A stretch of DNA of 64,000 bases from Actinophytocola algeriensis (lineage in GTDB: Bacteria > Actinomycetota > Actinomycetes > Mycobacteriales > Pseudonocardiaceae), in the NCBI RefSeq assembly GCF_014203735.1, contig NZ_JACHJQ010000013.1:62001-126000 (forward strand), read 5' to 3'. The translations under genes were made by a program, and so were the position numbers. Below the pieces are notes generated by a model. The model saw only the letters and a program-made list of their open reading frames with translations, made no database searches and was not told the DNA's origin. Shown here in pieces: positions 796 through 15,033 of this stretch. Position 1 is the stretch's first letter; every line of letters begins with the position of its first letter.

Positions 796-1845
796 TCAGA
801 CGGTCGGCCGCAGGCGCTGCAGCCCGGCGGCGACGACGATGACGAGCCCCTTGACGAGCAGCTGGACGTTCGGGTCCACGCCGTGGAGACCGAGGAAGTT
901 GTTGAGCACACCGAGGAGCAGCGCGCCGGCGACCGTGCCGACGACCGAGCCCCGGCCACCCATCAGGCTCGTGCCGCCGATGACGACGGCCGCGATCGCG
1001 TCCAGCTCGTAGCCGAACCCGTCGTTGGGGCTGCCCTGGTTGAGCTGGCCGGCGTGCACGATGCCCGCCAGCGCCGCCAGGAACCCGCAGATGCAGAACA
1101 CGATGACCTTCACGCGGGTCACCGGCACCCCGGAGAGCCGCGCGGCCTTCTCGTTGCCGCCGATCGCGTACACGTGGCGGGCGAAGGCACTGGTGCGCAG
1201 GAACACGATCGCGACGACGGCGACGACCGCGAAGATCAGCGCGGGGATCGGCACGATCCCGTTGAACGTGCGCTCCCCCAGCAGGGAGAACGTCACCGGC
1301 GCCTCGCCTGGCCCGTCGCCGTACGCGATGGCGACGCCCTGCCCGCCCGACCAGATGCGGGCGAGACCTCTGGCTATCTGCATGCCGGCGAGCGTCACGA
1401 TGAACGCCTGTATGCCGAACAACGCGGACGCCATCCCTTGCAGGAAGCCGAAGAACAGCCCGATCGCCAGCACGATGACGACGGTGGCGACGACCCCGAA
1501 GTCGTCGTTCACCATCAGCACCGCCGACCCGACCGCGGCGAGACCGAGCACCGCGCCGACGGACAGGTCGATGCCGCCGACGAGGATCACGAACGTCATG
1601 CCGACGGCCATGATCCCGATCTCGGACATCGCGCGGACGACGTTGGCGAGGTTGTCCGCGTTGAGGAACAGCAGCTCGCCGTTGTGCCGCGGCGAGAACA
1701 CCACGGCTACGACGAACACCGCGACCAGGCCGAACAGGCTCTGGAAGCGGAACAGCGCGTTCACGAACTCCCGGCGCTGTTTCCTCTGCTGTGGCGGCGG
1801 TTCCGGCTCGGCACCGGCCTGCTTGGTCGTCACCTCGCTGGTCAT
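796..1845 (-). CDS. Sugar ABC transporter permease, RbsC/YtfT type
   Basis: Inner-membrane permease of a CUT2-type sugar importer, 349 aa, the usual length for RbsC/XylH-like proteins. After a charged N-terminus of about 25 residues with a QQRKQRR stretch there are many hydrophobic helices. The family loop with GGIDLSVGAVLGLAAV (about residues 90-105) is present, as is a C-terminal YELDAIAAVVIGGTSLMGGRGSV-like block split over residues 280-305 (EAA-like coupling region). The ATG overlaps the stop of the upstream ATPase gene (ATGA at 1842-1845), so translation is coupled. It presumably forms a homodimer with the ATPase beneath and the lipoprotein outside (family knowledge). Confidence 0.95.
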   Translation of the reverse strand: MTSEVTTKQAGAEPEPPPQQRKQRREFVNALFRFQSLFGLVAVFVVAVVFSPRHNGELLFLNADNLANVVRAMSEIGIMAVGMTFVILVGGIDLSVGAVLGLAAVGSAVLMVNDDFGVVATVVIVLAIGLFFGFLQGMASALFGIQAFIVTLAGMQIARGLARIWSGGQGVAIAYGDGPGEAPVTFSLLGERTFNGIVPIPALIFAVVAVVAIVFLRTSAFARHVYAIGGNEKAARLSGVPVTRVKVIVFCICGFLAALAGIVHAGQLNQGSPNDGFGYELDAIAAVVIGGTSLMGGRGSVVGTVAGALLLGVLNNFLGLHGVDPNVQLLVKGLVIVVAAGLQRLRPTV

Positions 1846-3407
1846 GCGTTCTCTCCTCCTTCAACCGCCAAAGCCGCGGAACCCTCACCCATCGACGCGG
1901 CCAGCAGGTCGGCCTCACCCGCCTGCCGCGTGTCCAGCTCACGCACGCTGCGCCCGCCGGACAGCACCACCACCCGGTCGCACACTCCGACCAGCTCGGC
2001 CAGCTCCGACGACGCGAGCAGCACGCCGATCCCCTGCTGCGCCGCCTCGCCGAGCAGCTGGTAGATCTCCGCCTTCGCACCGACGTCCACGCCGCGGGTC
2101 GGCTCGTCGAGCAGCAGCAGGACCGGTTCGGTCAGCAGCATCCGGCCGAAGACGACCTTCTGCTGGTTGCCGCCGGACAGCGTGCCGACCGCGTCACCGA
2201 TCGAGCCGAGCTTCACCTTCAGCTCGGCGGTGATCCGCCGCACGGCACCGGTTTCCCTGGCCCTCGGCACGAACCCGGCCGTGGCGATGCGATCCACAAT
2301 GGACAGCACGGTGTTCGCGGCGACCGAGTGTTCCAGCGACAGCCCCGCGATCCGCCGGTCCTCCGGCACGAGCGCCATGCCCGCGCGCAGCGACTGCCGG
2401 GCGCCGCGCGGGTGGAAAGGCCTGCCGCGGAACAGGATCTCGCCCCGCAACGTCCCGGCCGAGCCCGCGCCGTAGAGGGTCTCGAGCAGCTCGGTGCGCC
2501 CGGAGCCGAGCAGCCCGCCGACGCCGACGATCTCGCCCCGCCGGACGGCCAGGCTGATGCCGTCGGGTTCCCGCCGCCCGGACCGCTCGCGCCGCGGGGT
2601 GAGCGCGAGGCCGGTGACGCGCAGGACCTCCTCCCCCGGATCGACGTCGCGCGTGCGGAACATGGCCTGCACGGGCCGTCCGACCATGGCCTCGGCCGCG
2701 GCCTCCGCGGTCATGTCCCGCGTGTCGAACCCGGCGACCACGGAACCGTTGCGCAGCACGGTCGCCCGGTCGGCGATGCGGCCGATCTCGTCCATGCGGT
2801 GGGAGATGTAGACGATCCCGACCCCGGCCCTGCGCAGCTCGGAGATCACCGTGAACATCTGCTCGACCTCGACCGGCGAGAGCGCGGAGGTCGGCTCGTC
2901 CATGATCAGGACCTTCGCGTCGAGGGACAGCGCCTTCGCGATCGTCACCAGCTGCTGCTCGCCGGTGCGCAGCTCGCCGACCGGTCTGCGCGGGTCGAGC
3001 GCGACGCCGCAGCGCTCCAGCAGCCCCCTGGTCACCTGGTTCGTGCGGCGTCGGTCGACCGTGCGCAGCCGGGTCCGGAGCTCACGGCCGAGGAAGATGT
3101 TCTCCGCCACCGTGAGACCGGGCACGAGGTCCAGCTCCTGGTGGATCATGGCGACGCCCGCGCGCTGCGCGTCGGCAGGCGCGGCGAACCGCACCGGAGC
3201 ACCGCCGATCGAGACCGTGCCGTCGTAGTCGGTGACGTCGCCGGACAGGATCTTCATGAGCGTCGACTTGCCCGCGCCGTTCTCGCCGAGCAGCGCGTGC
3301 ACCTCACCGGCCCGCACCGTGAGGTCGATGTCGCGGCAGGCGCGCACACCGCCGTACGACTTGCTGATGCCGATCATCTCGACCAGCGGGTTGACAGCGT
3401 TGTCCAT
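1842..3407 (-). CDS. Sugar ABC transporter ATP-binding protein with two ABC domains, RbsA/MglA type
   Basis: Cytoplasmic energising subunit of the sugar importer, 521 aa, as expected for tandem-domain CUT2 ATPases. Domain 1 (about residues 8-245) has Walker A GENGAGKST, a Q-loop region and Walker B VLIMDEPTSAL. Domain 2 (about 262-510) has the typical degenerate Walker A (GLLGSGRTE), signature LSGGNQQKVVFGRM and Walker B LLLLDEPTRGVD. The weak second P-loop is normal for this family. First gene of the operon, directly behind a strong promoter with a LacI-type operator (3431-3483). The start at 3405-3407 has a purine-rich GAGGGAGC just upstream. Carbohydrate class is clear; the exact sugar is not. 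Confidence 0.96.
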   Translation of the reverse strand: MDNAVNPLVEMIGISKSYGGVRACRDIDLTVRAGEVHALLGENGAGKSTLMKILSGDVTDYDGTVSIGGAPVRFAAPADAQRAGVAMIHQELDLVPGLTVAENIFLGRELRTRLRTVDRRRTNQVTRGLLERCGVALDPRRPVGELRTGEQQLVTIAKALSLDAKVLIMDEPTSALSPVEVEQMFTVISELRRAGVGIVYISHRMDEIGRIADRATVLRNGSVVAGFDTRDMTAEAAAEAMVGRPVQAMFRTRDVDPGEEVLRVTGLALTPRRERSGRREPDGISLAVRRGEIVGVGGLLGSGRTELLETLYGAGSAGTLRGEILFRGRPFHPRGARQSLRAGMALVPEDRRIAGLSLEHSVAANTVLSIVDRIATAGFVPRARETGAVRRITAELKVKLGSIGDAVGTLSGGNQQKVVFGRMLLTEPVLLLLDEPTRGVDVGAKAEIYQLLGEAAQQGIGVLLASSELAELVGVCDRVVVLSGGRSVRELDTRQAGEADLLAASMGEGSAALAVEGGENA

Positions 3408-3430
3408 GCTCCCTCGTCGCCAGTCGTCAG

Positions 3431-3483
3431 CGTCTGGGAAATCGATTACCCGAGACGCTAGGGGCGGTGCGGGACGGTGTCAA
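3431..3483 (-). promoter_or_regulatory. Promoter with LacI-family operator for the sugar ABC operon
   Basis: On the minus strand a near-consensus promoter reads TTGACA (3478-3483), 17-bp spacer, TAGCGT (3455-3460). Just downstream, over the expected transcription start, lies GGGAAATCGATTACCC (3436-3451), centred on AATCGATT, the palindromic core common to LacI-family operators. An outer CGTCT/AGACG repeat extends the dyad to 3431-3457. This predicts repression by a LacI-type regulator released by sugar. No lacI-family gene is visible in this window; it may lie beyond base 1. Confidence 0.8.
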
Positions 3484-3530
3484 GGGTGCGAACGAGGATG
3501 GCGCGGAGCCGCCGACCGGCAGGGCCCCGA

Positions 3531-3582
3531 GTCACGAAGGGGTCCTTCATCACACCGCTCCACACGAAGGGGTCCTTCGTCA
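3531..3582. repeat. Two copies of a short hairpin repeat, ACGAAGGGGTCCTTC(A/G)T
   Basis: A 17-bp motif occurs at 3534-3550 and 3564-3580, 30 bp apart. Each copy folds on itself (GAAGG, loop GGT, CCTTC), with extra pairing from flanking AC/GT in the second copy. The pair lies between the divergent sugar operon and toxin-antitoxin locus, away from both -10 boxes. It could be a dispersed intergenic repeat or a bidirectional structure; no T-run follows. Confidence 0.6.
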
Positions 3583-3626
3583 CGCGGGTGCGCACGTTCG
3601 CGCACGAGCGTGCTAGCCTGAATCGC

Positions 3627-4202
3627 ATGTCCGCGCTACGAACCGCACTGGCCCGCGCCGGGCTTCGGGTCGAGGCGGACGAGTTTCTCGCACTGGTCGA
3701 GGACGCCGCCAAGCGGCTCTCCCCTGTCGACCCGCGCCCGGCCGACTACTTCACCACCGACCAGCGCACCGCGCTCACGGCGGTGGGGTTCGACCTCGCG
3801 CCACAGCGGCAGGGCGAACGGGACGTGCGGGCGCGGACGGTCGCGCTGCAGGCGGTCCTGCGCGACACGGCGCTGACGGTGGCGGGCGCGGCCGAACGGA
3901 TCGGCGTCGACGCCAGCCGGATCCGGCACCGGCTCGCGGCGGGCCAGCTGGTCGGCTGGAAGGACCGCGGCGGCTGGCGGCTGCCGGTGTGGCAGTTCAC
4001 CGACGACGACGTGCTGCCCGGGCTCGGGACCGTGCTCGCCGAGGTGCCCGCCGACCAGCCCGCGCTGGTGGTGGCCGCGTTCATGACCACACCGCAGACC
4101 GCGCTCGGCGACCCGCCCGTGACGCCGAGGGACTGGCTGCTGGCGGGCGGCATGCCCGAGAAGGTCGCGCGGCTCATGTCGGTACTGGGGACGCCTGCCT
4201 GA
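3627..4202 (+). CDS. Antitoxin-like DNA-binding protein of a RES toxin-antitoxin pair
   Basis: 191-aa protein, most likely the antitoxin and autorepressor for the RES-domain enzyme that follows after 1 nt. The middle (about residues 80-125: LTVAGAAERIGVDASRIRHRLAAGQLVGWK) looks like an excisionase/MerR-type helix-turn-helix with a short wing. The C-terminus has DPPVTPRDWLLAGGMPEKVARLMSVL, resembling the toxin-neutralising tail of Xre/MbcA/ParS-like antitoxins (DUF2384 context). The ATG at 3627 is chosen because a TAGCCT -10 box (3614-3619) leaves only 7 nt, suggesting a leaderless mRNA. The longer upstream frame would read through the hairpin repeats. Function is inferred mostly from pairing. 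Confidence 0.75.
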   Translation: MSALRTALARAGLRVEADEFLALVEDAAKRLSPVDPRPADYFTTDQRTALTAVGFDLAPQRQGERDVRARTVALQAVLRDTALTVAGAAERIGVDASRIRHRLAAGQLVGWKDRGGWRLPVWQFTDDDVLPGLGTVLAEVPADQPALVVAAFMTTPQTALGDPPVTPRDWLLAGGMPEKVARLMSVLGTPA

Positions 4203-4203
4203 C

Positions 4204-4857
4204 GTGTCCCGACTCCCCCTGCCCCCTTCGCCTTCCGTGCTGCACGCGCGCCTGCGCCCGCACGAGGACGTCGTCGCGCTGCCGACCTCCACCCGCCTCG
4301 TGCGGGTGTTCGTCGCCGCGGGCGCACACCAGCAGCGGTGGAACACCTTCCGCCACACCGGCCCGCTGCCGCACGCCAGGTTCGACCCGCAGCCGCCGCC
4401 ACCGAACGGTGGTGTGGTCACCGCGCCCAAGCACGGCGTCCTGTACTTCGGGCTGTCCGTGCGGACGTCCATCGCCGAGGTGTTCCAGGCGTCGTCCATC
4501 GTGGACAGATCGACGCGGCGGCCGCACCTGGCCGTGTTCGCGCCGGTCCGCCCGCTGAAGCTCCTCGACCTCTGCGGGCTGTGGCCGACCAGGGCCGGGG
4601 CGTCGCAGGAGATCTCCAGCGGACCCAAGGACATCACGCAGGCGTGGGCGCGGACGATCCGCGACGCGTTCCCCGGCCTCGACGGGCTCTGGTACCGCTC
4701 GTCGATGGACTCCGGCGACCCGGCCGTGTGCCTGTGGGATCCGCCTGCTGGCGACGCGCTGCCCCTCACGCCGGAAGTGCTGCTGCCGCTCGACTACCCG
4801 GGCCTCGACCTGCCGCTGGCCCGCATCTGCGACTCGCTGAACTACGTCCTCAACTGA
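4204..4857 (+). CDS. RES-domain toxin (NAD+-degrading enzyme family)
   Basis: 217-aa RES-family protein. Characterised members (MbcT of M. tuberculosis) phosphorolyse NAD+ and stall growth. Family landmarks in order: LVRVFVAAGAHQQRWNTFR (about 27-45, substrate Arg region), HARFDP (57-62), GVLYFGLSVRTSIAEVF (78-94, with the conserved Tyr and Glu), a middle LLDLCGLW strand, and YRSSMDSGDPAVCLW (about 164-178), where RES proteins carry their conserved Ser. Starts at GTG 4204, 1 nt after the antitoxin stop, so the two are translationally coupled. No truncation is seen, so the toxin is probably active when unbound. Transfer is plausible but base composition matches the surroundings. Confidence 0.88.
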   Translation: MSRLPLPPSPSVLHARLRPHEDVVALPTSTRLVRVFVAAGAHQQRWNTFRHTGPLPHARFDPQPPPPNGGVVTAPKHGVLYFGLSVRTSIAEVFQASSIVDRSTRRPHLAVFAPVRPLKLLDLCGLWPTRAGASQEISSGPKDITQAWARTIRDAFPGLDGLWYRSSMDSGDPAVCLWDPPAGDALPLTPEVLLPLDYPGLDLPLARICDSLNYVLN

Positions 4858-4877
4858 GGGCCTCCCCCGGCGCCGGG

Positions 4878-4950
4878 TAGGGGTTCCCCACTTCGGATTC
4901 TGGGGGTTTCCCCGGTGTCGGGAAGAGCTCGGGAACTTATCGTAAGGAAC
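4878..4950 (+). promoter_or_regulatory. Conserved upstream element, copy A (shared with 48783-48850)
   Basis: This 5' region carries TCCCCAC, GGATTC(T), GGGGGTTTCCC and TGTC in that order, then CGTAAGG about 46 bp after GGATTC. The same series in the same order and spacing lies upstream of the serine hydrolase gene at 48883. Both copies sit about 85-100 bp before the start codon. This looks like a promoter class or binding site shared by two unlinked genes; the factor is unknown. Confidence 0.6.
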
Positions 4951-4992
4951 GAGCCGGCTCGTGAATCACATCACACGAACAAGGAGGTCGTG

Positions 4993-5226
4993 ATGAACGA
5001 GCCAACCCGGTGCACGAGACCCGTCGACATGCCGAACCGCCCGCGTGTGTGGCTGGTCGGCCGGATCGGGACCACCCCCGACCCGATCGACCTGCCCGCC
5101 GTCCGGGACACCTGGTTGCGCACCTGGTTCCCCGGTGCCGACGGGATCTACCACACCGCGGACGGTCGGCACCACGCCACCTGGGCCGAGCTGCACGCTC
5201 GGTGCGACCTCGTCGAGGTGGCGTGA
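4993..5226 (+). CDS. Small protein of unknown function, 77 aa
   Basis: Begins at ATG 4993 behind a perfect AAGGAGG (4981-4987) with 5-nt spacing, so translation is well supported. The protein has an N-terminal charged/Pro region, then RVWLVGRIGTTPDPIDLPAVRDTWLRTWFPGADGIY and a WAELHARCDLVEVA tail. It has no signal peptide or membrane segment. I do not recognise the family. It is preceded by the conserved upstream element at 4878-4950 and is convergent with terC, whose stop lies 4 bp away. Confidence 0.7.
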   Translation: MNEPTRCTRPVDMPNRPRVWLVGRIGTTPDPIDLPAVRDTWLRTWFPGADGIYHTADGRHHATWAELHARCDLVEVA

Positions 5227-5230
5227 TCGG

Positions 5231-6412
5231 TCACCTGCCCGTTCGGTCGGCGGCGGTGTCACCGGCCTCGAGCGGCGACCGGTCGGTCTCCGTGCTCTCT
5301 TCGTCGTCGGTCCCGGTGACGGCGTCGGTCCCGGTGACGGCGTCGGTCCCGGTGACGGCGTCGGTCCCGGTGACGGCGTCGGTCCCGGTGACGGCGTCGG
5401 TCCCGGTGACGGCGGCCTCGGCCGGCGCCCCGTTCTTCTTCTCGTCCCTGCGGGTCTTCATGAGGCTGGCGACCGCGGTGATGACCAGGACGCCGATGAT
5501 CACCGACAGGGACAGCGGGATGCCGATGGTCGGCACGTTGAGGTGCTCGCCGCCGTTGAGGAACGGCAGCGTGTTCGTGTGGAGCGCCTCGAGGACCATC
5601 TTCACGCCGATGAAGCCCAGGATGACCGCGAGCCCGATCGACAGGTAGACCAGGCGCCGCAGCAGGCCGCCGAGCAGGAAGTACAGCTGCCGCAGACCCA
5701 TCAGCGCGAACGCGTTGGCCGCGAAGACCAGGAACGGCTCCTTGGTGAGACCGAAGATCGCGGGGATCGAGTCCACCGCGAACATGATGTCCGCCGAGCC
5801 GATCGCGATCATCACGATGAACATCGGCGTCGCGAAGCGCTTGCCGTCGATCTTCGTGAAGACGTGGCCGTGGTGGTAGTCGTCGGTGACGGGGAAGAGC
5901 TTGCGGGCCCACTTCGTGACCCGGTTCTCCTCGTAGTCCTCGTCGTCGTCGCCGCCGATACCGGAGCCCGACAGCTTGATCGCGGTGTAGATGAGGAACG
6001 CGCCGAACACGTAGAACACCCAGCTGAACTGGGAGATCGCGGCCGCGCCGACGGCGATGAAGATGCTGCGGAAGACCAGCGCCAGCAGGATGCCGACCAG
6101 GAGGACCTTGTGCTGGTGGATCTGCGGCACCTTGAACGCCGACATGATCACCAGGAAGATGAACAGGTTGTCCACCGAGAGGGAGTACTCGGTGATGTAC
6201 CCGGCGAAGTACTCACCGGCGTAGGTGCCACCCGAGAACATCCAGATACCGATGCCGAACAGCACCGCGCAGGCGACGTAGAAGGTGACCCAGCGCCCCG
6301 CCTCACCGACGCCGACCTCGTGTGGCTTGCGGTCGACGATCACCAGGTCGATCGCAAGTAGCACTAGGAGGCCGCCGATGGTGGCGAGCCAGATCCACGC
6401 GGGAACATTCAT
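5231..6412 (-). CDS. terC: TerC-family integral membrane protein (probable Mn2+/metal exporter)
   Basis: 393-aa membrane protein of the TerC/Alx family, implicated in manganese efflux in bacteria. Starts at ATG 6410-6412 with GGAGG 8 nt upstream. Conserved acidic membrane motifs are IDLVIVDRKPHEVG (helix 1 end), YSLSVDNLFIFLVIM and SADIMFAVDSIPAIFGLT, with about eight hydrophobic segments. A longer frame to 6547 merely translates the riboswitch leader. The C-terminal tail is unusual: after a Lys/Arg-rich KTRRDEKKNG it carries six perfect repeats of Val-Thr-Gly-Thr-Asp-Ala from an 18-bp DNA repeat, then a DDEESTETD acidic end. Expression is probably switched on by Mn2+ via the leader. Confidence 0.93.
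   Translation of the reverse strand: MNVPAWIWLATIGGLLVLLAIDLVIVDRKPHEVGVGEAGRWVTFYVACAVLFGIGIWMFSGGTYAGEYFAGYITEYSLSVDNLFIFLVIMSAFKVPQIHQHKVLLVGILLALVFRSIFIAVGAAAISQFSWVFYVFGAFLIYTAIKLSGSGIGGDDDEDYEENRVTKWARKLFPVTDDYHHGHVFTKIDGKRFATPMFIVMIAIGSADIMFAVDSIPAIFGLTKEPFLVFAANAFALMGLRQLYFLLGGLLRRLVYLSIGLAVILGFIGVKMVLEALHTNTLPFLNGGEHLNVPTIGIPLSLSVIIGVLVITAVASLMKTRRDEKKNGAPAEAAVTGTDAVTGTDAVTGTDAVTGTDAVTGTDAVTGTDDEESTETDRSPLEAGDTAADRTGR
5306..5413. repeat. Six perfect copies of an 18-bp in-gene tandem repeat (terC C-terminus)
   Basis: GTCGGTCCCGGTGACGGC occurs six times with no mismatch (5306, 5324, 5342, 5360, 5378, 5396). The unit is a multiple of three, so copy number changes only lengthen or shorten the VTGTDA tail of TerC. 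Perfect identity, even at third positions, indicates recent expansion by slippage or recombination. Confidence 0.97.
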
Positions 6413-6420
6413 CCAATGAA

Positions 6421-6544
6421 CCTCCGGTTCAACGGTTCTTACCGACAACCGGAGGTCTCTTCCGCAGGTCAGCGCCTGCCGGGGACGCCGGGACTCGAGG
6501 TCCGTGTTGACGACGCCGCCGCGAAGGAATACTCCCCTCCAACA
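6421..6544 (-). promoter_or_regulatory. yybP-ykoY-type (Mn2+) riboswitch leader of terC with a switchable Shine-Dalgarno
   Basis: Read on the minus strand, the leader has TTGGAGGGGAGTA at 6544-6532, a CGTCGTCAACACGG middle and GGAAGAGACCTCC near 6464-6452. These are the P1/L1 GGAGTA and AGAC blocks of the yybP-ykoY family, which sits before terC/mntP genes. P1 would pair GGAGG (6542-6538) with CCTCC (6455-6451). The 3' P1 strand extended, CCTCCGGTT (6455-6447), is also a 9/9 complement of AACCGGAGG (6429-6421), the Shine-Dalgarno of terC, enclosing a CGGT-AAGA-ACCG mini-hairpin. So ligand-stabilised P1 should free the ribosome site (inferred ON switch). Confidence 0.85.
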
Positions 6545-6674
6545 CATCCATTGTGGTGGTCATATCCGGAACACACCAGTCAGATCAGGTTGTCGAACAT
6601 CACATTCGGGCGATGCGGACCAATCGGTCAGGGGCTCTCAGCCACTCTCAGGAAACGTCCAATACGTTTTGAGC

Positions 6675-9600
6675 GTGCCCCGTATCCCACGTCTTCAACC
6701 ACGCTGGCTCGCCGCCGGGCTGGTCGCCGTCCTCGCCGCCGCCGGTGGCCTGGTCTGGCTGAACAGCGGCGACGACCCGGCCGAGGTCAAGACCCGTGAG
6801 CTGACGCTCGCCGGCGCCCAGGGGCCCGGCGACGCGGCCCCGGTGCGCCTCGACGCCACCCTGTACCTGCCCGAGGTGACCCCGGCGCCCGCGGTCATCG
6901 TGGCGCACGGGTTCGGCGGCTCGAAGCAGAGCGTGGACGGCGACGCCCGTGAGCTGGCGCAACGCGGGTTCGTCGCGCTGGCCTACTCGGCCCGTGGCTT
7001 CGGGCGCAGCGAGGGGCAGATCTCGCTGAACTCGCGGCAGCACGAGGTCGCGGACGCGTCGAAGCTCGTCGACTGGCTCGGCGAGCAGGCCGAGGTCACC
7101 CAGGACGGTGACGACGACCCGAAGGTGGGCGTGACCGGCGGCTCGTACGGCGGTTCGCTGTCGCTGCTGCTCGCGGGCACCGACAAGCGGGTCGACGCGC
7201 TCGCGCCGTCGATCACCTACAACGACCTGAGCCAGGCGCTGCTGCCCAACTCGGCCACGACCGACGACACGGTCCCCGGCACGCCTGCGGCCAACGCGTA
7301 CGCGGCGGACGGTGTGTTCAAGCGCTCCTGGGCCGGCATCTTCTTCGCCTCCGGTGCGGGCGGCGGCGGGCTCGCCGACCCGACCGTGGACGCGGTGGAG
7401 GAAGGCGACGAGGACGACGACATCGACGTGCCGGCAGGCAACACGGGCACCGGCGGCACGGATTCGGGCGGCGAATCCGGCGGCACCGACAGTGGTACCG
7501 ACAACGGCGCGGGCAGTGACACGGGCAGTGGCACCGACAGCGACACGGGCGGCGACACGGGCAGTGACTCCGGCGCGGCGAACAGTGCCACGGCCGGTGC
7601 CGGCGCTGGTCAGCCGGGTGGCGGACCCAGCCAGCCCGGGCAGGAGGCCGGGAACCCGTGCGGGAAGTTCCGGCCCGAGTTCTGCGCGGCCTACGCCGAG
7701 GTGGCCACCACCGGCCGGGCCAGTCAGCAGACCGTCGACCTGCTGCAGTCCGTCTCCCCGATGCAGGTCACCAAGAACATCACGCAGCCGACGATGCTGG
7801 TGCAGGGCGAGCAGGACACCCTGTTCGGCCTCGACCAGGCCGACGCCAACGCCCGGCAGATCGCCGAGGCGGGCGGCAAGGTGAAGGTCGTCTGGTACAC
7901 CGGCGGGCACGACGGCGGACGGCCCGGTCCCGAGCTGCGCGGCCAGATCGCCGACTGGTTCGACTTCCACCTCCGCGGCCAGGGCAGCGACCCCGGCGAG
8001 GGCCTGTCGTACGCGGTGCAGGGCGCGCTGCGGGTGCAGGGCGCGCCGTCGGTGCGGACCGTCAGCACCGGCACCTACCCCGGCCTGAACGGCGCCGACG
8101 CCACCGAGCGCAGGAGCGTCCCGGTCTTCGGGCCGGAACAGACGATCGTCAACCCACCCGGCGGCAACCCGGCGTCGATCAGCAGCCTGCCCGGGCTCGG
8201 GTCGATCATCGGCAGCTCGTCGCGGCTGGTCGGCCGGGTGTCCATCGACCTGCCCGGGCAGGCAGCGCAGTTCCAGAGCCGCCCGCTGCAGTCGCAGCTG
8301 CTGATCGCGGGTGCGAGCACCGTCCGGCTGCGGGTCGCCGCGGTCCCGGGTGCCGCGCCGCCCGCGACCGAGGGCGCGGTGCTGTTCGCGAAGCTGTACG
8401 ACGTTAGCGCGGACGGCACCCGGATCCTGCCGGGCTCCGCGGTGTCGCCGTTCCGGATCCCGGCGCTGCCCGCGGACGGCTCGCCGGTCGAGGTGACCGT
8501 GACGCTGCCGGGCATCGTCCGGCCCATCGAGACCGACCGGAGCATCGCGCTGGTGGTCAGCACCACCGACCAGGCGTACGCCCCCGCCACGCAGGCGGCG
8601 GCGTACCGGGTCGCCGTCGCCGAGGGCGCGGCCGTCGAGGCGCCGGTCGTGTCCGGCACGCGCACCGGCAACGGGCTGCCCTCGGGGCCGCTGATCGGCA
8701 TCGCGATCGTGCTCGGGCTGGTCGTGCTCGCGGCGATCTGGGGTGCCTTCCGCAGGCGCCGGGCGACCGACCTGGATCCCGGACTCGTGGACGTGCCGCT
8801 GGTGATCGAGGGGCTGTCGAAGCGGTACCCGGGCGGCGTGACCGCGGTGGACGACCTGTCGTTCCGCGTCGAGGCCGGCCAGGTACTGGGGCTTCTCGGC
8901 CCGAACGGCGCAGGCAAGACGACGTCGCTGCGGATGCTGATGGGCCTGATCCAGCCCTCCGGCGGCACCATCCGCGTGTTCGGGCACAAGATCTACTCCG
9001 GTGCGCCGGTGCTGTCGCGGATCGGCTCGTTCGTCGAGGGCGCCGGGTTCCTGCCGCACCTGTCCGGGCAGGCGAACCTGGAGCTGTACTGGGCGGCCAC
9101 CGGCAGGCCGCCGGACAAGGCGCACGTCGAGGAGGCACTGGAGATCGCGGGTCTCGGCAAGGCGGTGCACCGGCGGGTGCGGACCTACAGCCAGGGCATG
9201 CGGCAACGGCTCGCGATCGCGCAGGCCATGCTCGGTCTCCCGGACCTGCTGGTGCTCGACGAGCCGACCAACGGGCTCGACCCGCCACAGATCCACCAGA
9301 TGCGCGCCGTGCTGCGCCGGTACGCCTCGACCGGGCGGACCGTCGTGGTCTCCTCGCACCTGTTGGCCGAGGTGGAGCAGACCTGCGACCACGTGGTGGT
9401 CATGCACCAGGGCAGGCTCGTCGCGTCGGGCAAGGTCGAGGAGATCGTCGGCGGCAGCGGTGAGGCGACCTTCCGGGTGGACCGCCCGGAGGACGCCGCC
9501 GAGGTGCTGCGCGCGGTGGACGGAGTGGAGGGCGTCGAGGTGGAGGGCAACCAGGTCCACGCGGACCTCGACGGCCTCCCCCGCGCCGAGGCGCTGGCCA

Positions 9601-9698
9601 AGCTGGTCGGCGCGGGTGTCGCGGTGGAACAGGCAGGACCGCGGCGCAGGCTCGAGGACGCGTTCCTGCAGCTGGTCGGAGAGGAGACGTCCCGGTGA
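6675..9698 (+). CDS. Membrane-anchored S15/CocE-type hydrolase fused to an ABC transporter ATPase
   Basis: 1007-aa two-function protein. Residues about 9-28 are a signal anchor. Residues about 55-640 form an X-Pro-peptidase/CocE-like alpha/beta hydrolase: VAHGFGG oxyanion region (76-82), nucleophile motif TGGSYGG with Ser157, Asp in GEQDTLFG (about 381), His in GGHDGG (about 412), then a jelly-roll part. A Gly/Ser/Thr/Asp-rich low-complexity insert interrupts it (about 244-322). A transmembrane helix (about 672-692) leads to a full ABC ATPase: GPNGAGKT (about 742-749), YSQGMRQ, LLVLDEPTNGLD. The hydrolase thus lies outside and the ATPase inside. GTG 6675 is chosen because TACGTT (6663-6668) sits 6 nt before it (leaderless). 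The permease follows with a 4-nt overlap. Substrate unknown. Confidence 0.9.
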   Translation: MPRIPRLQPRWLAAGLVAVLAAAGGLVWLNSGDDPAEVKTRELTLAGAQGPGDAAPVRLDATLYLPEVTPAPAVIVAHGFGGSKQSVDGDARELAQRGFVALAYSARGFGRSEGQISLNSRQHEVADASKLVDWLGEQAEVTQDGDDDPKVGVTGGSYGGSLSLLLAGTDKRVDALAPSITYNDLSQALLPNSATTDDTVPGTPAANAYAADGVFKRSWAGIFFASGAGGGGLADPTVDAVEEGDEDDDIDVPAGNTGTGGTDSGGESGGTDSGTDNGAGSDTGSGTDSDTGGDTGSDSGAANSATAGAGAGQPGGGPSQPGQEAGNPCGKFRPEFCAAYAEVATTGRASQQTVDLLQSVSPMQVTKNITQPTMLVQGEQDTLFGLDQADANARQIAEAGGKVKVVWYTGGHDGGRPGPELRGQIADWFDFHLRGQGSDPGEGLSYAVQGALRVQGAPSVRTVSTGTYPGLNGADATERRSVPVFGPEQTIVNPPGGNPASISSLPGLGSIIGSSSRLVGRVSIDLPGQAAQFQSRPLQSQLLIAGASTVRLRVAAVPGAAPPATEGAVLFAKLYDVSADGTRILPGSAVSPFRIPALPADGSPVEVTVTLPGIVRPIETDRSIALVVSTTDQAYAPATQAAAYRVAVAEGAAVEAPVVSGTRTGNGLPSGPLIGIAIVLGLVVLAAIWGAFRRRRATDLDPGLVDVPLVIEGLSKRYPGGVTAVDDLSFRVEAGQVLGLLGPNGAGKTTSLRMLMGLIQPSGGTIRVFGHKIYSGAPVLSRIGSFVEGAGFLPHLSGQANLELYWAATGRPPDKAHVEEALEIAGLGKAVHRRVRTYSQGMRQRLAIAQAMLGLPDLLVLDEPTNGLDPPQIHQMRAVLRRYASTGRTVVVSSHLLAEVEQTCDHVVVMHQGRLVASGKVEEIVGGSGEATFRVDRPEDAAEVLRAVDGVEGVEVEGNQVHADLDGLPRAEALAKLVGAGVAVEQAGPRRRLEDAFLQLVGEETSR

Positions 9699-10624
9699 CC
9701 GGAACGAACGGGGTACACACCGACGAGGCGGCCATCGAGCAGCTGGCCGACGCGGCGGCGCAGGAAGATCAGGGCGTGCAGCCAGACGGCTCGGTCACGG
9801 GCTACCGCGCGGGCCGGACGCTGCGGCTGCGGGTCGAGCTGGTCCGCCAGCTGCGGCGCCGCCGCGTGCAGCTCATGCTCGGGTTCCTGGTGCTGCTGCC
9901 GTGGATCCTGTGGGCGGCGTTCGAGTTCGGCACGGACGCGCGGGACAACCGGTCCGGCGGGTTCGTCGACCTGGCGACCTCGTCGGCACCGAACTTCGTG
10001 GTGTTCGTGCTGTTCGCGGTGTCGAGCTTCCTGCTGCCGATGATCGTGGCGCTGTTCTTCGGCGACACGATCGCGTCCGAGGCGTCGTGGTCGAGCCTGA
10101 AGTACCTGCTGGCGATGCCGGTCCCCCGGCACCGGCTGATGCGGCAGAAGGCGATCGCGTCGGGGCTGTTGTCGTTCTTCGCGATCGCGCTGCTGCCCGC
10201 GGTGGCACTGCTCGTCGGCGTGATCTTCTACGGCGCGGGCGAGGCCGTCAGCCCCACCGGTGACGCGATCCCGTTCTCCGACTCGATGATGGCGCTGCTG
10301 TTCACGGTGCTGTACCTGGCGGTGCACCTGCTGTGGGTGGCCGGGCTGGCGCTGTTCCTGACGGTGTCGACGGACGCGCCGCTCGGCGCGGTCGGCGGCA
10401 CGGTGCTGGTGGCGATCCTGTCGTCGATCCTGGACCAGATCACGGCGCTCGAGGGGCTGCGGAACTACCTGCCGACGCACTACGCGTTCGCGTGGTCGGA
10501 CCTGATCTCGACGGACATCGACTGGTCGAACATGGCGGCGGGCGCGTTCTCCGCGGTGGCGTACGGCGCGTTCTTCGGCCTGCTCGCGGCTCGTCGTTTC
10601 CGCACGAAGGACATCACGTCGTGA
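9695..10624 (+). CDS. ABC-2-type permease partner of the hydrolase-ATPase fusion
   Basis: 309-aa membrane protein. Its GTG overlaps the fusion gene's stop (GTGA at 9695-9698), so the two are coupled and almost surely form one exporter. The first 50 residues are soluble and acidic/Gln-rich. Helices follow: MLGFLVLLPWILWAAFEFG, FVVFVLFAVSSFLLPMIVALFFG, LLSFFAIALLPAVALLVGVIFYG, a helix with LLFTVLYLAVHLLWVAGLALF, GAVGGTVLVAILSSIL and a last one before a basic RRFRTKD tail. About six spans match the ABC2 membrane family. The cargo is unknown. Confidence 0.88.
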   Translation: MTGTNGVHTDEAAIEQLADAAAQEDQGVQPDGSVTGYRAGRTLRLRVELVRQLRRRRVQLMLGFLVLLPWILWAAFEFGTDARDNRSGGFVDLATSSAPNFVVFVLFAVSSFLLPMIVALFFGDTIASEASWSSLKYLLAMPVPRHRLMRQKAIASGLLSFFAIALLPAVALLVGVIFYGAGEAVSPTGDAIPFSDSMMALLFTVLYLAVHLLWVAGLALFLTVSTDAPLGAVGGTVLVAILSSILDQITALEGLRNYLPTHYAFAWSDLISTDIDWSNMAAGAFSAVAYGAFFGLLAARRFRTKDITS

Positions 10625-10636
10625 CATGATCGCGGC

Positions 10637-11074
10637 ATGATCTCGCAGGCCTGCCTGCGCTGTGGGGAACGCCAGGAGCTGGTCGTGGATCTCGACCTGC
10701 GCGGCGTTCCCCACGGCTTCGCGGGGCACGACACCGTGTACGACTGGGACATCGTGCTGTCGTGCACCGGCTGCGAGTTCGGTGAGCTGCGCGTGTACTC
10801 CCACGACTGCTGGGCTCCTCGGTGGGACGAGGAGTGGGACATGGAGTGGTCGGGCCAGCTCGACGCGGCCACGCTCGACCTGCTCCGGCGGTCGCTTTCG
10901 GCGTGCCAGGACCGCTCGGACCCGAAGTGCGGGTGCGCGGCGCACGTGTCGTTGCGGAAGACCAGCGCCTACACGCACAAGCTGCGCATCGACCCCAACG
11001 TCACGCCAGAAGGGGAGCGCCCCTTCGCGAAGGTGACACTGAGCGACGACGGCCTGCCCACGTTCGCCTACTGA
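10637..11074 (+). CDS. Zinc-ribbon-like protein of unknown function
   Basis: 145-aa soluble protein, 12 bp behind the ABC permease and likely in its transcript. It starts ISQACLRCGERQELVVDLDLRGVPHGF and has a second pair in IVLSCTGCEFGELRVYSHDCW. The two CxxC pairs (about residues 6-9 and 43-46) are spaced as in a zinc ribbon. Later cysteines (CQDRSDPKCGCAAH) could add a second site. No clear Shine-Dalgarno precedes ATG 10637. I do not recognise a named family. Confidence 0.72.
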   Translation: MISQACLRCGERQELVVDLDLRGVPHGFAGHDTVYDWDIVLSCTGCEFGELRVYSHDCWAPRWDEEWDMEWSGQLDAATLDLLRRSLSACQDRSDPKCGCAAHVSLRKTSAYTHKLRIDPNVTPEGERPFAKVTLSDDGLPTFAY

Positions 11075-11135
11075 TTGCTTCGCCGGTCCGCCGGGTAGTT
11101 CACTGGCACGTCCGAGAAGCCGCAGGAGGCGCGCC

Positions 11136-11516
11136 ATGGCCCGACCCGTGCACTTCGAGATCCACGCGACCGACCCCGTACAGGCGAAGGTCTTCTACGA
11201 GACCGTGTTCGGCTGGCGCATCGAGCAGTGGGGCACGAACCCGTACTGGACGGTCAACACCGGCGAGGGCCCGGGCATCAACGGCGGGCTGCTGCCCCGC
11301 AAGGGCCCACGTCCCGCCGCCGACACCCCGGTCGGCGCCTTCGTGATCACGGTCGAGGTCACCGACCTGGCCGAGACCGTCGCCGCCGTCATCGCCGCGG
11401 GCGGCGCGATCGCCCTCGACAAGCAACCCGTACCGAACGTCGGCTGGCTCGCCTACGTCGCCGACATGGACGGCAACCTGTTCGGCATCCTGGAACCCGA
11501 CACGTCGGCGTCCTAG
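11136..11516 (+). CDS. VOC (glyoxalase/bleomycin-resistance fold) family protein
   Basis: 126-aa single-domain VOC protein. MARPVHFEIHATDPVQAKVFYETVFGWRIEQWG is the classic beta-alpha-beta start with a potential metal His near residue 6. The second half has FVITVEVTDLAETVAAVIAAGGAIALDKQPV and VAYVADMDGNLFGILEPD, where the final Glu is the usual metal ligand position. AGGAGG lies about 7 nt before ATG 11136. Members bind metals or small molecules, or are lyases/dioxygenases; the specific activity cannot be told from sequence. Confidence 0.9.
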   Translation: MARPVHFEIHATDPVQAKVFYETVFGWRIEQWGTNPYWTVNTGEGPGINGGLLPRKGPRPAADTPVGAFVITVEVTDLAETVAAVIAAGGAIALDKQPVPNVGWLAYVADMDGNLFGILEPDTSAS

Positions 11517-11601
11517 CGGTTCGCCCTGTTGAGCCCTGCTTTGTCGCTGCGGCGGCTTTCCCTGTCGAGAGTTGTGCTCCGACGAGGCGCACCCCCGAGC
11601 A

Positions 11602-13536
11602 TCAGCGCCCTCGGCGGCCGCGCAGGTAGTCGCCGACCACGGCGGCACCAAGGCCGTCCAGATCGGGGGCCACGACTCGCCCGCCGCTGCGGCGGGCGAT
11701 CAGGTCGACGAACTGTGCCAGCCGAGGGTCGTCGCCCAGCATGAAGACCGTCACCGACGCCCCGAGTTTGGCCAGCGCGTCGACCTCCGCGACCGTCTTG
11801 CGCAGAGTCCTCGGCTCCGGTGGGTAGGCGAACTCCGCCTCCCCGTCGGGTTCCAGGTGTGCGGTCGGCTCGCCGTCGGTCACCACCAGCACCACCGGCT
11901 GGGCGTCGGAGTGCTTGCGCAGGTGCTGCCCGGCCAGCAGCAGCGCGTGGTGCAGGTTGGTCCCCTGCTCCCACACCCCCTCCAGGCCGACCAGCTCCGG
12001 CAGCTCCACCGACCGCGCGTGCCGCCCGAACGTGATGAGCTGCAACGCGTCCGTGCGGAACCGCGTCGAGATCAGCTGGTGCAGCGCGAGCGCGGTGCGC
12101 TTCATCGGCACCCACCGCCCGTCCTGCACCATCGACCACGACGTGTCCACGCACAGGGCGACCGCCGCCCGGGTCCGCTGCTCGGTCTCGGTGACCTCCA
12201 CGTCGACGACGTCCAGCGACACCGGACCACCCGCCGAGCGCAGCACCGCGTTGCGCACCGTCCGCGACACGTCCCACGGTGCGGTGTCGCCGAACTCCCA
12301 CGGCCGGGTCGCGCCGGTCGGCTCACCGACCGCGCCGGACAACGCGGAGTCCCGCTCGCCGGTGCGCCGGGCCGTGGCCAGCACGTCCTTCAGCGCCGTC
12401 TGCCCGAGGCGCCGCAACGCCTTGGGAGACAGGCGAAGCGAGCCGTCCGGCGCGCGTTCCAGCAGGCCCTGGTCACGCAGCTGCTGCTCCAGCTCGGCGA
12501 GCCTGCGGGCGTCGACCCGGGCCTCGTCACCCAGCTGGCGCTCCAGCGCCTCCAGGTCGATGTCCTCCAGCCGCGCACCCGGGTACGACTGCGACAGCTG
12601 CTCCGCCAGCGCGTCCAGCTCGGCGAGGTCGGCCATCGCCTGCGCGCCCTCGCCCATGCCGAGCGGCTGGTTGCCGCGGAACCGTGCCGAACCGGTCCAG
12701 TCCTCACCGGGCCGCAGCGCACGCAGGTTGGCGTCGAGCGTCGACACCTGTTCGAGCAGTCGGGGATCGCCGAACGCCGAGGCCATCAGGTCCGACAGCT
12801 CGGCCCGCTGCTGGTCGGACATCGAGTTCATCATCCGCTGCGCGGCCGCGGCACGGGCCGCCAGCGCGTCGACCAGTTCCTCGGTGTTGCGCGGGTTCTC
12901 CGGGAAGAACTCGCCGTGCCGGCGCATGAACTCCTGGAACTGCGCCGTCGTGTCGTCGCCGCGCAGGTGTGCCAGCAGCAGGTCGTTCAGATCCGCCATC
13001 ATCGCGCGGATCCGCTCGGTGTCCTCCTGGCTCATGCCTTCCAGGGCCTGCTTCATGCCCTGGAACCGCGACTCCATCAGTTCCTGGCCGAGCAGGTTCC
13101 TGATCTGCTCGTACTTCTCGCGTGCCTCGTCGGACCGCCAGTCGTACTCGGACAGCTCCCGGATGGCCGCGGCCGTACCGGACGGCAACGCGTCGAGCTG
13201 CGCCTCCCGGAACCGGGCGTCGTCGTCCGGGTCGGGGAACAGCGCGGTCTTCTCCGCGCTCACCGCCTCGTCGAGCAGCTGCCGCACCTGCTGCAGCGTC
13301 CCGTCGAGGTTGTGGCGGCGCTGGATCTGCGACCGCTTCTCCCACAGCCGCCGCGTCAGCTCGTCCAGGCCCGCGTTCTGCCTGGTGCCGCGGCGGAGCA
13401 GCTCCTCGAGCGCGGACCGGGGCGACCGGCCGTCCATGACGTCCCGCCCGATCGCGTCGAGCGCGTCCCGCAGGTCGACCGGCGGCGCGAGCGGGTCGGG
13501 CCCGTCGTAGTACTGGCCGTAGGTGAAACGGGTCAC
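11602..13536 (-). CDS. VWA-domain protein paired with chelatase-like AAA+ ATPase
   Basis: 644-aa cytosolic protein. Residues about 1-420 are charged, helical and Gln/Glu/Arg-rich. The C-terminal von Willebrand A domain has the MIDAS motif DTSWS (in ALCVDTSWSMVQDGRW), a later TFG loop and VVLVVTDGEPTAHLE. This layout matches the VWA partner of Mg-chelatase-like ATPases (Rv0959-type in M. tuberculosis). GTG 13534-13536 is chosen because AGGGGG precedes it by about 5 nt. The gene is 22 bp downstream of the AAA+ gene, so one operon. The pair probably remodels a protein or metal-cofactor target; none is known. Confidence 0.88.
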   Translation of the reverse strand: MTRFTYGQYYDGPDPLAPPVDLRDALDAIGRDVMDGRSPRSALEELLRRGTRQNAGLDELTRRLWEKRSQIQRRHNLDGTLQQVRQLLDEAVSAEKTALFPDPDDDARFREAQLDALPSGTAAAIRELSEYDWRSDEAREKYEQIRNLLGQELMESRFQGMKQALEGMSQEDTERIRAMMADLNDLLLAHLRGDDTTAQFQEFMRRHGEFFPENPRNTEELVDALAARAAAAQRMMNSMSDQQRAELSDLMASAFGDPRLLEQVSTLDANLRALRPGEDWTGSARFRGNQPLGMGEGAQAMADLAELDALAEQLSQSYPGARLEDIDLEALERQLGDEARVDARRLAELEQQLRDQGLLERAPDGSLRLSPKALRRLGQTALKDVLATARRTGERDSALSGAVGEPTGATRPWEFGDTAPWDVSRTVRNAVLRSAGGPVSLDVVDVEVTETEQRTRAAVALCVDTSWSMVQDGRWVPMKRTALALHQLISTRFRTDALQLITFGRHARSVELPELVGLEGVWEQGTNLHHALLLAGQHLRKHSDAQPVVLVVTDGEPTAHLEPDGEAEFAYPPEPRTLRKTVAEVDALAKLGASVTVFMLGDDPRLAQFVDLIARRSGGRVVAPDLDGLGAAVVGDYLRGRRGR

Positions 13537-13558
13537 GCCGCCCCCTCGCAAGCTCCGC

Positions 13559-14974
13559 TCACGGCCCGTACACCGTGGTGCCGTCGTTGCTGTCGGAGTC
13601 CTTCGCGAGCTTGCGCCGCAGGTACAGCGACTCGAGCGCCAGCTCGATGGCCGCCGCGATCCGGCCCGGGTTGTCCTTGGGTGACACGTTCAGCCGGGAC
13701 GCGACCTCGTGCAGCACCGGCAGCTCGGGCAGCGCCGCGAGCACCTCGCCGCCCGGCACCCGCTCACCGGTGGCGACCAGGTGGCCGTCGACCACCGCGT
13801 CCACGAGCGGTCGCAGGTCCAGGCCGGCGAACCGGTCCTTGGCGGTCTCGGCGACCGCGCGGCGCAGCAGGTGCGTCAGGTGCTCGGTCTCGCGGCCCTC
13901 CTCACCGGACTCGAACTCGAGCTTGCCGCGCAGCACGGCGGGCACCGACTCGAGGTCGATCGGCCGCGCCACGGCCGGGTGCTCGTCGATCAGCGCGGAC
14001 CGGCGCAGCGCGGCGGCCGCGACGGTCTCGGCGGCCGCCACGGCGAACCGGGCGGACACGCCGGAGCGCTGGTCGATGGCGGTGGACTCGCGCAGGTTGC
14101 GCACGAACCGGGCCAGCACCTCGAGCAGCTCGTCGCCGACCTCGGCGACCAGGCTCGCCTCCTGCTTGATCACGTCCACCTCGGCGGCGACGGACAGCGG
14201 GTAGTGCGTGACCACCTCGGCACCGAAGCGGTCCTTCAACGGGGTGATGATCCGGCCGCGGTTGGTGTAGTCCTCGGGGTTGGAGGTGGCGACCAGCAGC
14301 ACGTCGAGCGGCAGCCGCAGCGTGTAGCCGCGGACCTGGATGTCCCGCTCCTCCATGACGTTCAGCAGCGCGACCTGGATCCGCTCTGCCAGGTCCGGCA
14401 GCTCGTTGATCGCCACGATGCCACGGTGCGCCCTCGGCACGAGTCCGAAGTGGATGGTCTCCGGGTCGCCGAGCGTGCGACCCTGCGCGACCTTCACCGG
14501 GTCGACGTCACCGATCAGGTCACCCACGGACGTGTCCGGGGTGGCGAGCTTCTCCGCGTACCGCTCGGAGCGGTGGCGCCAGCCGACGGGCAGGTCGTCG
14601 CCCAGCTCGGCGGCGCGGCGGCGGGACTCGGGGGTGATCGGGTCGAGCGGGTGCTCGCCGAGCTCGGCGCCCTCGATCACGGGCGTCCACTCGTCGAGCA
14701 GGCCGACCATGGTGCGCAGCAGCCGGGTCTTGCCCTGGCCGCGCTCACCGAGCAGCACGACGTCGTGGCCCGCGATGAGCGCGCGCTCCAGCTGCGGCAC
14801 GACGGTCTTGTCGAACCCGACGATGCCGGGCCACGGGTCGCGCCCCGCACGCAACGCGGCCAGCAGGTTGTCACGGATCTCGGTCTTCACACCGCGGGGC
14901 TCGTGCCCGGCGGCGCGCAGCTCTCCCGCGGTGCGGGGAAGGTTCTCGGGTGGGGTGGGAACGGCGCCTGTCAC
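13559..14974 (-). CDS. Mg-chelatase/MoxR-like AAA+ ATPase
   Basis: AAA+ ATPase of about 471 aa in the BchI/ChlI/MoxR superfamily (Rv0958-like). Walker A is GERGQGKTRLL; the Walker B/sensor region reads GIVAINELPDLAERIQVALLNVMEERDIQVRGY, followed by LLVATSNPEDYTNRGRI, the hallmark of this clade. The C-terminal part is a lid/helical bundle. GTG 14974 is preferred: a TAGCGT -10 box at 14987-14982 lies 7 nt before it, with TCGACT as -35 at 17 bp. Operon with the downstream VWA gene. Its terminal TGAGCGGAGCTTGCGAGG shares a core with the repeat family at 22301-22454. Confidence 0.9.
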   Translation of the reverse strand: MTGAVPTPPENLPRTAGELRAAGHEPRGVKTEIRDNLLAALRAGRDPWPGIVGFDKTVVPQLERALIAGHDVVLLGERGQGKTRLLRTMVGLLDEWTPVIEGAELGEHPLDPITPESRRRAAELGDDLPVGWRHRSERYAEKLATPDTSVGDLIGDVDPVKVAQGRTLGDPETIHFGLVPRAHRGIVAINELPDLAERIQVALLNVMEERDIQVRGYTLRLPLDVLLVATSNPEDYTNRGRIITPLKDRFGAEVVTHYPLSVAAEVDVIKQEASLVAEVGDELLEVLARFVRNLRESTAIDQRSGVSARFAVAAAETVAAAALRRSALIDEHPAVARPIDLESVPAVLRGKLEFESGEEGRETEHLTHLLRRAVAETAKDRFAGLDLRPLVDAVVDGHLVATGERVPGGEVLAALPELPVLHEVASRLNVSPKDNPGRIAAAIELALESLYLRRKLAKDSDSNDGTTVYGP

Positions 14975-15033
14975 CGTTACGACGCTACGCACGTTCGGCC
15001 GATCAGTCGACGTGGAGTGACTCCAGGAGACCC

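Follow-up and report, generated by a model that had tools for sequence, protein, structure and literature searches.

Why should a hydrolase that is predicted to lie outside the cell share one polypeptide with an ATP-binding cassette (ABC) ATPase that is predicted to lie inside it? The question is raised by a two-gene locus in a 64,000-nucleotide stretch of the Actinophytocola algeriensis genome (Pseudonocardiaceae; contig NZ_JACHJQ010000013.1, positions 62,001 to 126,000 of the forward strand; hereafter the window). The first gene is predicted to encode a signal anchor, a CocE/S15-type hydrolase, a second membrane helix and a complete ABC ATPase in a single chain, and the second gene an ABC-2 permease. 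An earlier note, made from the sequence alone, had recognized this arrangement and surmised that ATP-driven export is tied in it to hydrolysis of the exported, or of an external, ester or peptide. Our own answer, to which we assign a probability of roughly one half, is that the two genes encode an ABC-2 exporter with a hydrolase tethered over its exit, to which it would deliver a lipophilic substrate that probably contains an ester; the substrate, the export and the coupling are each what we infer from the comparisons that follow.

A conserved fusion of a hydrolase and an ABC ATPase

The fusion gene is a single uninterrupted frame on the forward strand, from a GTG start codon at 6675 to a stop codon at 9696-9698, and Pfam recognizes both enzymatic domains in its product, which bears out the one-chain architecture. 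The survey of genomes for such fusions and for their permease partner that the earlier note had proposed recovers the same form in relatives: 92 fusions, from 57 and 35 loci that were kept because both domains share one frame, were aligned, and only two pairs among them (L028/L181 and L032/L081) are more than 93% identical. The note had named two findings that would undo its proposal. Absence of the fusion from relatives is contradicted by its wide occurrence there, and a frameshift or assembly artifact joining two genes is a practically negligible explanation, because the one-frame form recurs in all 92 loci. Left out of this set were L021 (a weak match of 340 residues), L029 (hydrolase alone), repeated or cut-off copies, and L164, L165, L166, L171 and L184, which encode the hydrolase without the ATPase and are five of 40 loci hand-picked among the wider order and phylum matches; L184 is cut at the end of its stretch.

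The Ser-Asp-His motifs that had been read as intact are so throughout the alignment, in which the putative triad Ser157, Asp381 and His412 is invariant, as are Cys329 and Cys337, which probably form a disulfide on the outside of the cell. The same holds (92/92) for Walker A Lys748, signature Ser839 and Gly841, Walker B Asp862 and Glu863, and His895 of the ATPase. Positions identical in at least 90 of the 92 sequences make up 33% of the ATPase, 15% of the hydrolase core, 8% of the C-terminal extension of the ATPase and 3% of the beta-sandwich, the least conserved of the folded domains.

The putative outside hydrolase

Pfam Peptidase_S15 matches residues 57-196 (E 1.4e-20; 74.6 bits against a curated cut-off of 23), an alignment that covers only positions 3-144 of the 262 in the profile. 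PepX_C remains below its cut-off in the window protein (16.4 against 22.5 bits) and reaches E<=0.01 in eight of nine aligned members, the window protein included; the NCBIfam model CocE_NonD (TIGR00976) gives 60.3 bits, under its cut-off of 66.3. An AlphaFold2 model of residues 1-699, built from 9 sequences, has a mean predicted local distance difference test score (pLDDT) of 65.8 and a predicted template modeling score (pTM) of 0.66, with pLDDT of at least 70 at 363 of the 699 residues and below 50 at 203, about half of the latter within a spacer rich in Asp, Ser and Gly; the full-length model, likewise from 9 sequences, is poorer (mean pLDDT 59.8, pTM 0.47). The best Foldseek match is 8yzn (PaL lipase), followed by CocE 1l7r (cocaine esterase), and the top 29 comprise PaL lipase, cocaine esterase, alpha-amino-acid ester hydrolases, an archaeal aminopeptidase, X-Pro dipeptidyl aminopeptidases and SACOL2612. 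These alignments span nearly the whole outside part, at 10-19% identity among the 50 best fold matches. As modeled, the outside part has the complete two-domain plan of CocE/S15 enzymes, yet it is divergent, a term that we use because it scores under the CocE_NonD cut-off. Esters appear likelier substrates than peptides, since the two best kinds of fold match are a lipase and an esterase.

The putative triad was assigned by alignment of the 92 fusions. In the model, Asp381 and His412 directly follow predicted strands 373-378 and 403-408, and the acid and base of an alpha/beta-hydrolase triad are expected just after such late strands. The low-complexity insert described earlier is present, and is better regarded as a spacer of variable length: it measures between 2 and 101 residues in relatives and is not confidently modeled. 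We considered the spacer as a functional element and rejected it on account of this variability. Elsewhere in the source genome, S15 is matched 11 more times, by open frames that are 298-824 residues long.

The ATPase and the membrane topology

ABC_tran matches residues 726-866 (E 1.6e-29, over the curated cut-off), and the motifs of the ATPase are complete, with Walker A GPNGAGKTT, signature YSQGM, Walker B LLVLDEP and the H-switch. The solved structures nearest to it by sequence are ABCA-type phospholipid transporters, followed by a Thermotoga ATPase, NosF and the mycobacterial multidrug efflux ATPase Rv1218c; the NCBIfam models for DrrA and for lantibiotic protection are matched as well, both far under their cut-offs. 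In LanFEG-type transporters a glutamate replaces the Q-loop glutamine, and Glu788 occupies this position in 91 of the 92 fusions. As a mark of a lantibiotic-type family this glutamate was dropped, because all seven unfused ATPases of the same genome that were compared also have Asp or Glu there.

Hydropathy predicts two helices in the window protein, at residues 11-29 and 673-691, and basic residues precede the first. A helix stands before the ATPase in 92/92 fusions and an N-terminal helix was found in 88, with a net positive charge in front of it in 84 of these 88. A hydrolase outside and an ATPase inside, as the earlier note had supposed, is the topology predicted from these features and is consistent with the sequence, more weakly so for helix 2. 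By eye, the relative L051 appears to have a cleavable signal peptide.

The permease partner and parallel evolution

A permease gene lies downstream of the fusion in 91 of the 92 loci (57/57 and 34/35), the exception, L185, being on a contig of 3120 bases. In the window this gene overlaps the end of the fusion gene, as noted before. Its product matches four Pfam families at E<=0.1, all of them ABC2_membrane models (ABC2_membrane_4 at E 1.9e-9), with no FtsX or MacB model among these matches; NCBIfam MutE/EpiE is matched weakly (17.4 bits against a cut-off of 145.2), and no solved structure is similar to it by sequence at E<=1. Between 6 and 8 helices are predicted in 77 of the 83 complete permeases. 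Given an ABC-2 permease and an ATPase whose neighbors include ABCA-type transporters, NosF and Rv1218c, we take the pair to be an exporter of a lipophilic molecule. The predicted permease start is at most 100 bp from the end of the fusion in 55/57 and 34/34 loci, with L053 and L052 at 428 and 244 bp. A 4-bp overlap is found in 42/57 and 23/34 relatives, counts that are biased upward by the choice of start codons, for which a script took the one nearest to the expected place.

Pairwise distances, compared over 83 of the 92 loci, are correlated at 0.915 between hydrolase and permease, 0.885 between hydrolase and ATPase and 0.846 between ATPase and permease. Because shared descent alone yields high correlations, the neighboring gene for a TerC-family membrane protein served as a control, in 33 loci. 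There, the hydrolase-permease correlation is 0.894 against 0.596 for hydrolase and TerC (difference 0.30, jackknife error 0.08), and the ATPase-permease correlation is 0.868 against 0.475 for ATPase and TerC (difference 0.39, error 0.12); given TerC, the partial correlation of hydrolase and permease is still 0.84. Hydrolase and permease thus evolve in step beyond what TerC accounts for and, judging from these sequence distances, probably work as one unit. The coordinates of the parts are collected in Table 1.

Table 1. Features of the fusion locus, in positions of the window
Feature	Positions	Strand	Remarks
Fusion gene: anchor, CocE/S15-type hydrolase, membrane helix, ABC ATPase	6675..9698	+	1007 residues
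First membrane helix or signal anchor	6705..6761	+	residues 11-29, hydropathy
Alpha/beta-hydrolase domain	6789..7976	+	residues 39-434
Ser157, putative nucleophile, in GGSYGG	7143..7145	+	92/92 by alignment
Asp/Ser/Gly-rich spacer	7356..7658	+	residues 228-328; low pLDDT
Cys329 to Cys337, invariant pair	7659..7685	+	92/92 by alignment
Asp381, putative catalytic acid	7815..7817	+	92/92 by alignment
His412, putative catalytic base, in GGHDG	7908..7910	+	92/92 by alignment
Beta-sandwich (PepX_C-like) domain	8004..8648	+	residues 444-658; PepX_C match weak
Second membrane helix, with terminal RRRR	8682..8756	+	residues 670-694 in the model; 673-691 by hydropathy
ABC ATPase core	8793..9464	+	residues 707-930
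Small C-terminal alpha/beta extension of the ATPase, with stop codon	9465..9698	+	structure model
ABC-2 permease, 309 residues	9695..10624	+	4-bp overlap with the end of the fusion gene; Pfam
TerC-family membrane protein	5231..6415	-	divergent neighbor; we do not count it among the parts of the machine

Distribution and descent

The outside part is matched in all six genomes of the genus that were searched (A. algeriensis included). In the family, 146 of the 150 genomes sampled have a match, from 44 of 46 genera, the four misses coming from two genera. A wider survey, for which a 23-row profile was used with a threshold of E 1e-40, gave matches in 155 of 200 genomes of the order, a sample that also contains members of the family, and in 37 of 396 from the phylum; not all of these matches are fusions. 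The fused form is present in additional orders of Actinomycetota, and carriers of the full fusion include four Actinokineospora species, Kibdelosporangium persicum, Haloechinothrix alba, a Crossiella sp., Pseudonocardia dioxanivorans, Nonomuraea gerenzanensis and Tsukamurella tyrosinosolvens; in the last of these it is annotated just as 'alpha/beta fold hydrolase' and adjoins an ABC permease. Twelve records of a plasmid collection match, nine of them over only 18-19% of the query; the other three are two fusions and the non-fusion L029. The TerC gene lies divergently upstream in 30 of the 33 family loci whose upstream sequence extends to 1.3 kb or more (23 of the 92 loci are too short there for this count). 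This linkage, together with the near-universal presence in the family, suggests that the fusion is a vertically inherited core chromosomal gene of this family. Three family genomes (G036, G063 and G064) contain, besides the first match, another that is more divergent and lies in a frame of 930-961 residues. The second match that was retrieved, L084, is a full fusion; the fusion is therefore, by its sequence, duplicated at least in that genome.

Unfused relatives of the hydrolase, namely a protein of Streptomyces sp. BHT-5-2 and those of L164, L165, L166, L171 and L184, resemble secreted enzymes by eye, and in these five loci neither the ATPase nor the permease of the fusions stands beside the hydrolase within the retrieved stretch. 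In L171 and in the cut locus L184, the unfused protein also seems, by eye, to carry a sorting signal or a hydrophobic tail at its C-terminus; such proteins may be anchored to the wall instead of being fused to the ATPase. In a tree of the hydrolase built with 46 of the 92 fusions, one branch splits all of these from six unfused relatives (Shimodaira-Hasegawa-like approximate likelihood ratio test support 97); as the fusions lie on one side of this branch, the tree is compatible with a single fusion event.

Proposed mechanism and alternative explanations

In the mechanism that we propose, the ATPase subunit of an actinobacterial cell-membrane ABC-2 exporter would carry, on the outside of the membrane, a serine hydrolase of CocE/S15 type that is tethered there by a helix that runs on into the ATPase. 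An ATPase dimer, if such is formed, would drive two permeases and place two hydrolase active sites above the exit. A lipophilic or amphipathic cargo would be drawn by the permease out of the membrane or the cytoplasm and, on emergence, be cut by the tethered enzyme, most likely at an ester and possibly at an amide. Cleavage after export could release, trim, inactivate or destroy the cargo, and would block its return and make transport irreversible. A stronger version, which we offer tentatively and consider somewhat unlikely, is that ATP hydrolysis inside the cell directly governs the CocE-type hydrolase outside through the one polypeptide, such that the enzyme acts only on cargo delivered by the pump or only while the pump cycles, and that the pair is a core machine of the actinobacterial envelope that has escaped recognition.

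Several observations weigh against an exporter coupled to its hydrolase. The parallel evolution of the parts supports joint function, not export, and it was gauged against TerC as a single control, where differences in rate could widen the gap between correlations. The charge pattern expected around helix 2, with more positive charge behind the helix than in front of it, is seen in just 61 of 92 fusions. The structure models were built on 9 sequences only (mean pLDDT 59.8 and 65.8), and the fold matches include peptidases, so that ester specificity is a guess. With respect to descent and context, TerC adjoins none of the 36 loci outside the family and no shared context is visible in the wider set, and only 41% of bootstrap trees, which include seven outgroup ATPases on long branches, recover the fusion ATPases as a group of one origin.

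Two rivals are the most serious: simple tethering, and an enzyme that is gated by ATP while nothing is transported. Under the former, the enzyme and the pump beside which it is anchored would have no substrate in common, the fusion just fixing expression or location. The apparently secreted unfused relatives, two of which seem to have a C-terminal anchor of their own, fit this explanation inasmuch as anchoring alone may be selected; that none of the five unfused loci has this ATPase or permease alongside, and that hydrolase and permease evolve in parallel beyond the syntenic neighbor TerC, speak against it, and we consider it unlikely. Mechanical signaling of the other kind is known from FtsEX, which activates cell-wall hydrolases in this manner. 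By analogy, the ABC pair would move no substrate and ATP hydrolysis would mechanically switch the outside enzyme on, a possibility to which the single helix and short linker between enzyme and ATPase lend themselves, as does the fact that the fused part is the enzyme itself rather than a separate binding protein. The permease, however, resembles the ABC2_membrane models and not those of FtsX or MacB, and most of its complete relatives have 6-8 predicted helices, which makes ATP gating without transport rather improbable in our view.

A pathway-specific system that activates and exports a prodrug of a natural product, as in the case of ZmaM, would follow the same plan of an outside serine hydrolase, a membrane part and an ABC component in one chain, as far as this plan is set out in the consulted part of PMC9889268. 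Such a role in a biosynthetic cluster is disfavored, and seems very improbable, given that the outside part occurs nearly throughout the family, that TerC lies alongside in most testable family loci, and that none of the nine neighboring genes scanned with Pfam (796-14992 of the window) is a biosynthetic synthase.

A gene whose outside part is nearly universal in its family (146/150 sampled genomes), and whose fused form occurs in other orders of Actinomycetota as well, keeps all catalytic residues and has a function undescribed in the open-access literature searched. Enzyme and pump, if coupled, would constitute a self-contained device for export and cleavage, and a test case for control by an ABC motor of chemistry across the membrane. 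If the substrates are antibiotics or envelope lipids, the system would be relevant to how members of a phylum with many antibiotic producers protect themselves or build their envelope.

Relation to known systems

The CocE/NonD and S15 enzymes (cocaine esterase, PaL lipase, alpha-amino-acid ester hydrolase and X-Pro dipeptidyl aminopeptidase) have in common with the window protein, as modeled and aligned, an alpha/beta-hydrolase domain, a beta-sandwich and Ser-Asp-His residues; the window protein differs from them in its membrane anchor, its spacer and cysteine pair, its fusion to an ATPase and its low identity. The DrrAB, Rv1217c-Rv1218c and LanFEG-type exporters have an ATPase and an ABC-2 permease of the same type, whereas the ATPase of the window bears an outside enzyme, and the DrrA, lantibiotic-protection and MutE/EpiE models all stay below cut-off. 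LanFEG systems have two different permease genes beside the ATPase; the window locus has one.

The earlier note knew of no characterized member of this architecture. For CocE/S15-ABC fusions this agrees with our search of the open-access literature, exclusive of subscription papers and preprints, in which we recognized no description of one; such fusions are apparently widespread and undescribed. For hydrolase and ABC component in one chain it does not hold, as there is a precedent with a different peptidase: ZmaM, in the portion of PMC9889268 consulted, consists of a ClbP-like S12 peptidase with an ABC half-transporter joined to its C-terminus, and the EdeA and PamJ homologs are long forms of the same kind. 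In ZmaM, EdeA and PamJ alike an outside serine hydrolase is N-terminal to the ABC component (PMC9889268, same portion). In contrast to the S12 (beta-lactamase family) peptidase and half-transporter of ZmaM, the window fusion combines a CocE/S15-type hydrolase with the ATPase only, the permease being encoded separately, and no S12 domain (beta-lactamase, PF00144) is found among the 14 Pfam families matched at E<=0.1. By this comparison, it follows the ZmaM plan with a different peptidase and a different split of parts and is not a member of the ZmaM family. An exporter component is also joined to a hydrolase in Q1D520 (TC 3.A.1.145), an ABC-2 domain fused to an M1 aminopeptidase; there, according to the part of PMC3924187 consulted, it is the permease and not the ATPase that is fused, and to a C-terminal zinc peptidase. 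The consulted part of PMC11878206, on the extra domains of alpha/beta hydrolases, names no ABC fusion.

Genomic neighborhood

The gene that follows the permease, at 10637-11074, has no Pfam match. An Rfam scan of 6000-10900 matched no family, and therefore no known manganese riboswitch lies by the TerC and fusion genes; a scan for promoters and terminators gave nothing useful. UvrB, considered as a second conserved neighbor, was dropped because the fragment matched its own locus, L042, only.

Farther upstream, at 3477-4857 on the forward strand, a gene without a Pfam match immediately precedes one that encodes a RES domain (PF08808, E 1e-16), an arrangement that we take to resemble a RES-type toxin-antitoxin pair. 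On the other side, 11602-14992 on the reverse strand holds genes for a vWA-domain protein and for an AAA ATPase that is MoxR-like by eye. In the related locus L160, a gene for a protein that resembles, by eye, a vWA lipoprotein stands just downstream of the fusion pair.

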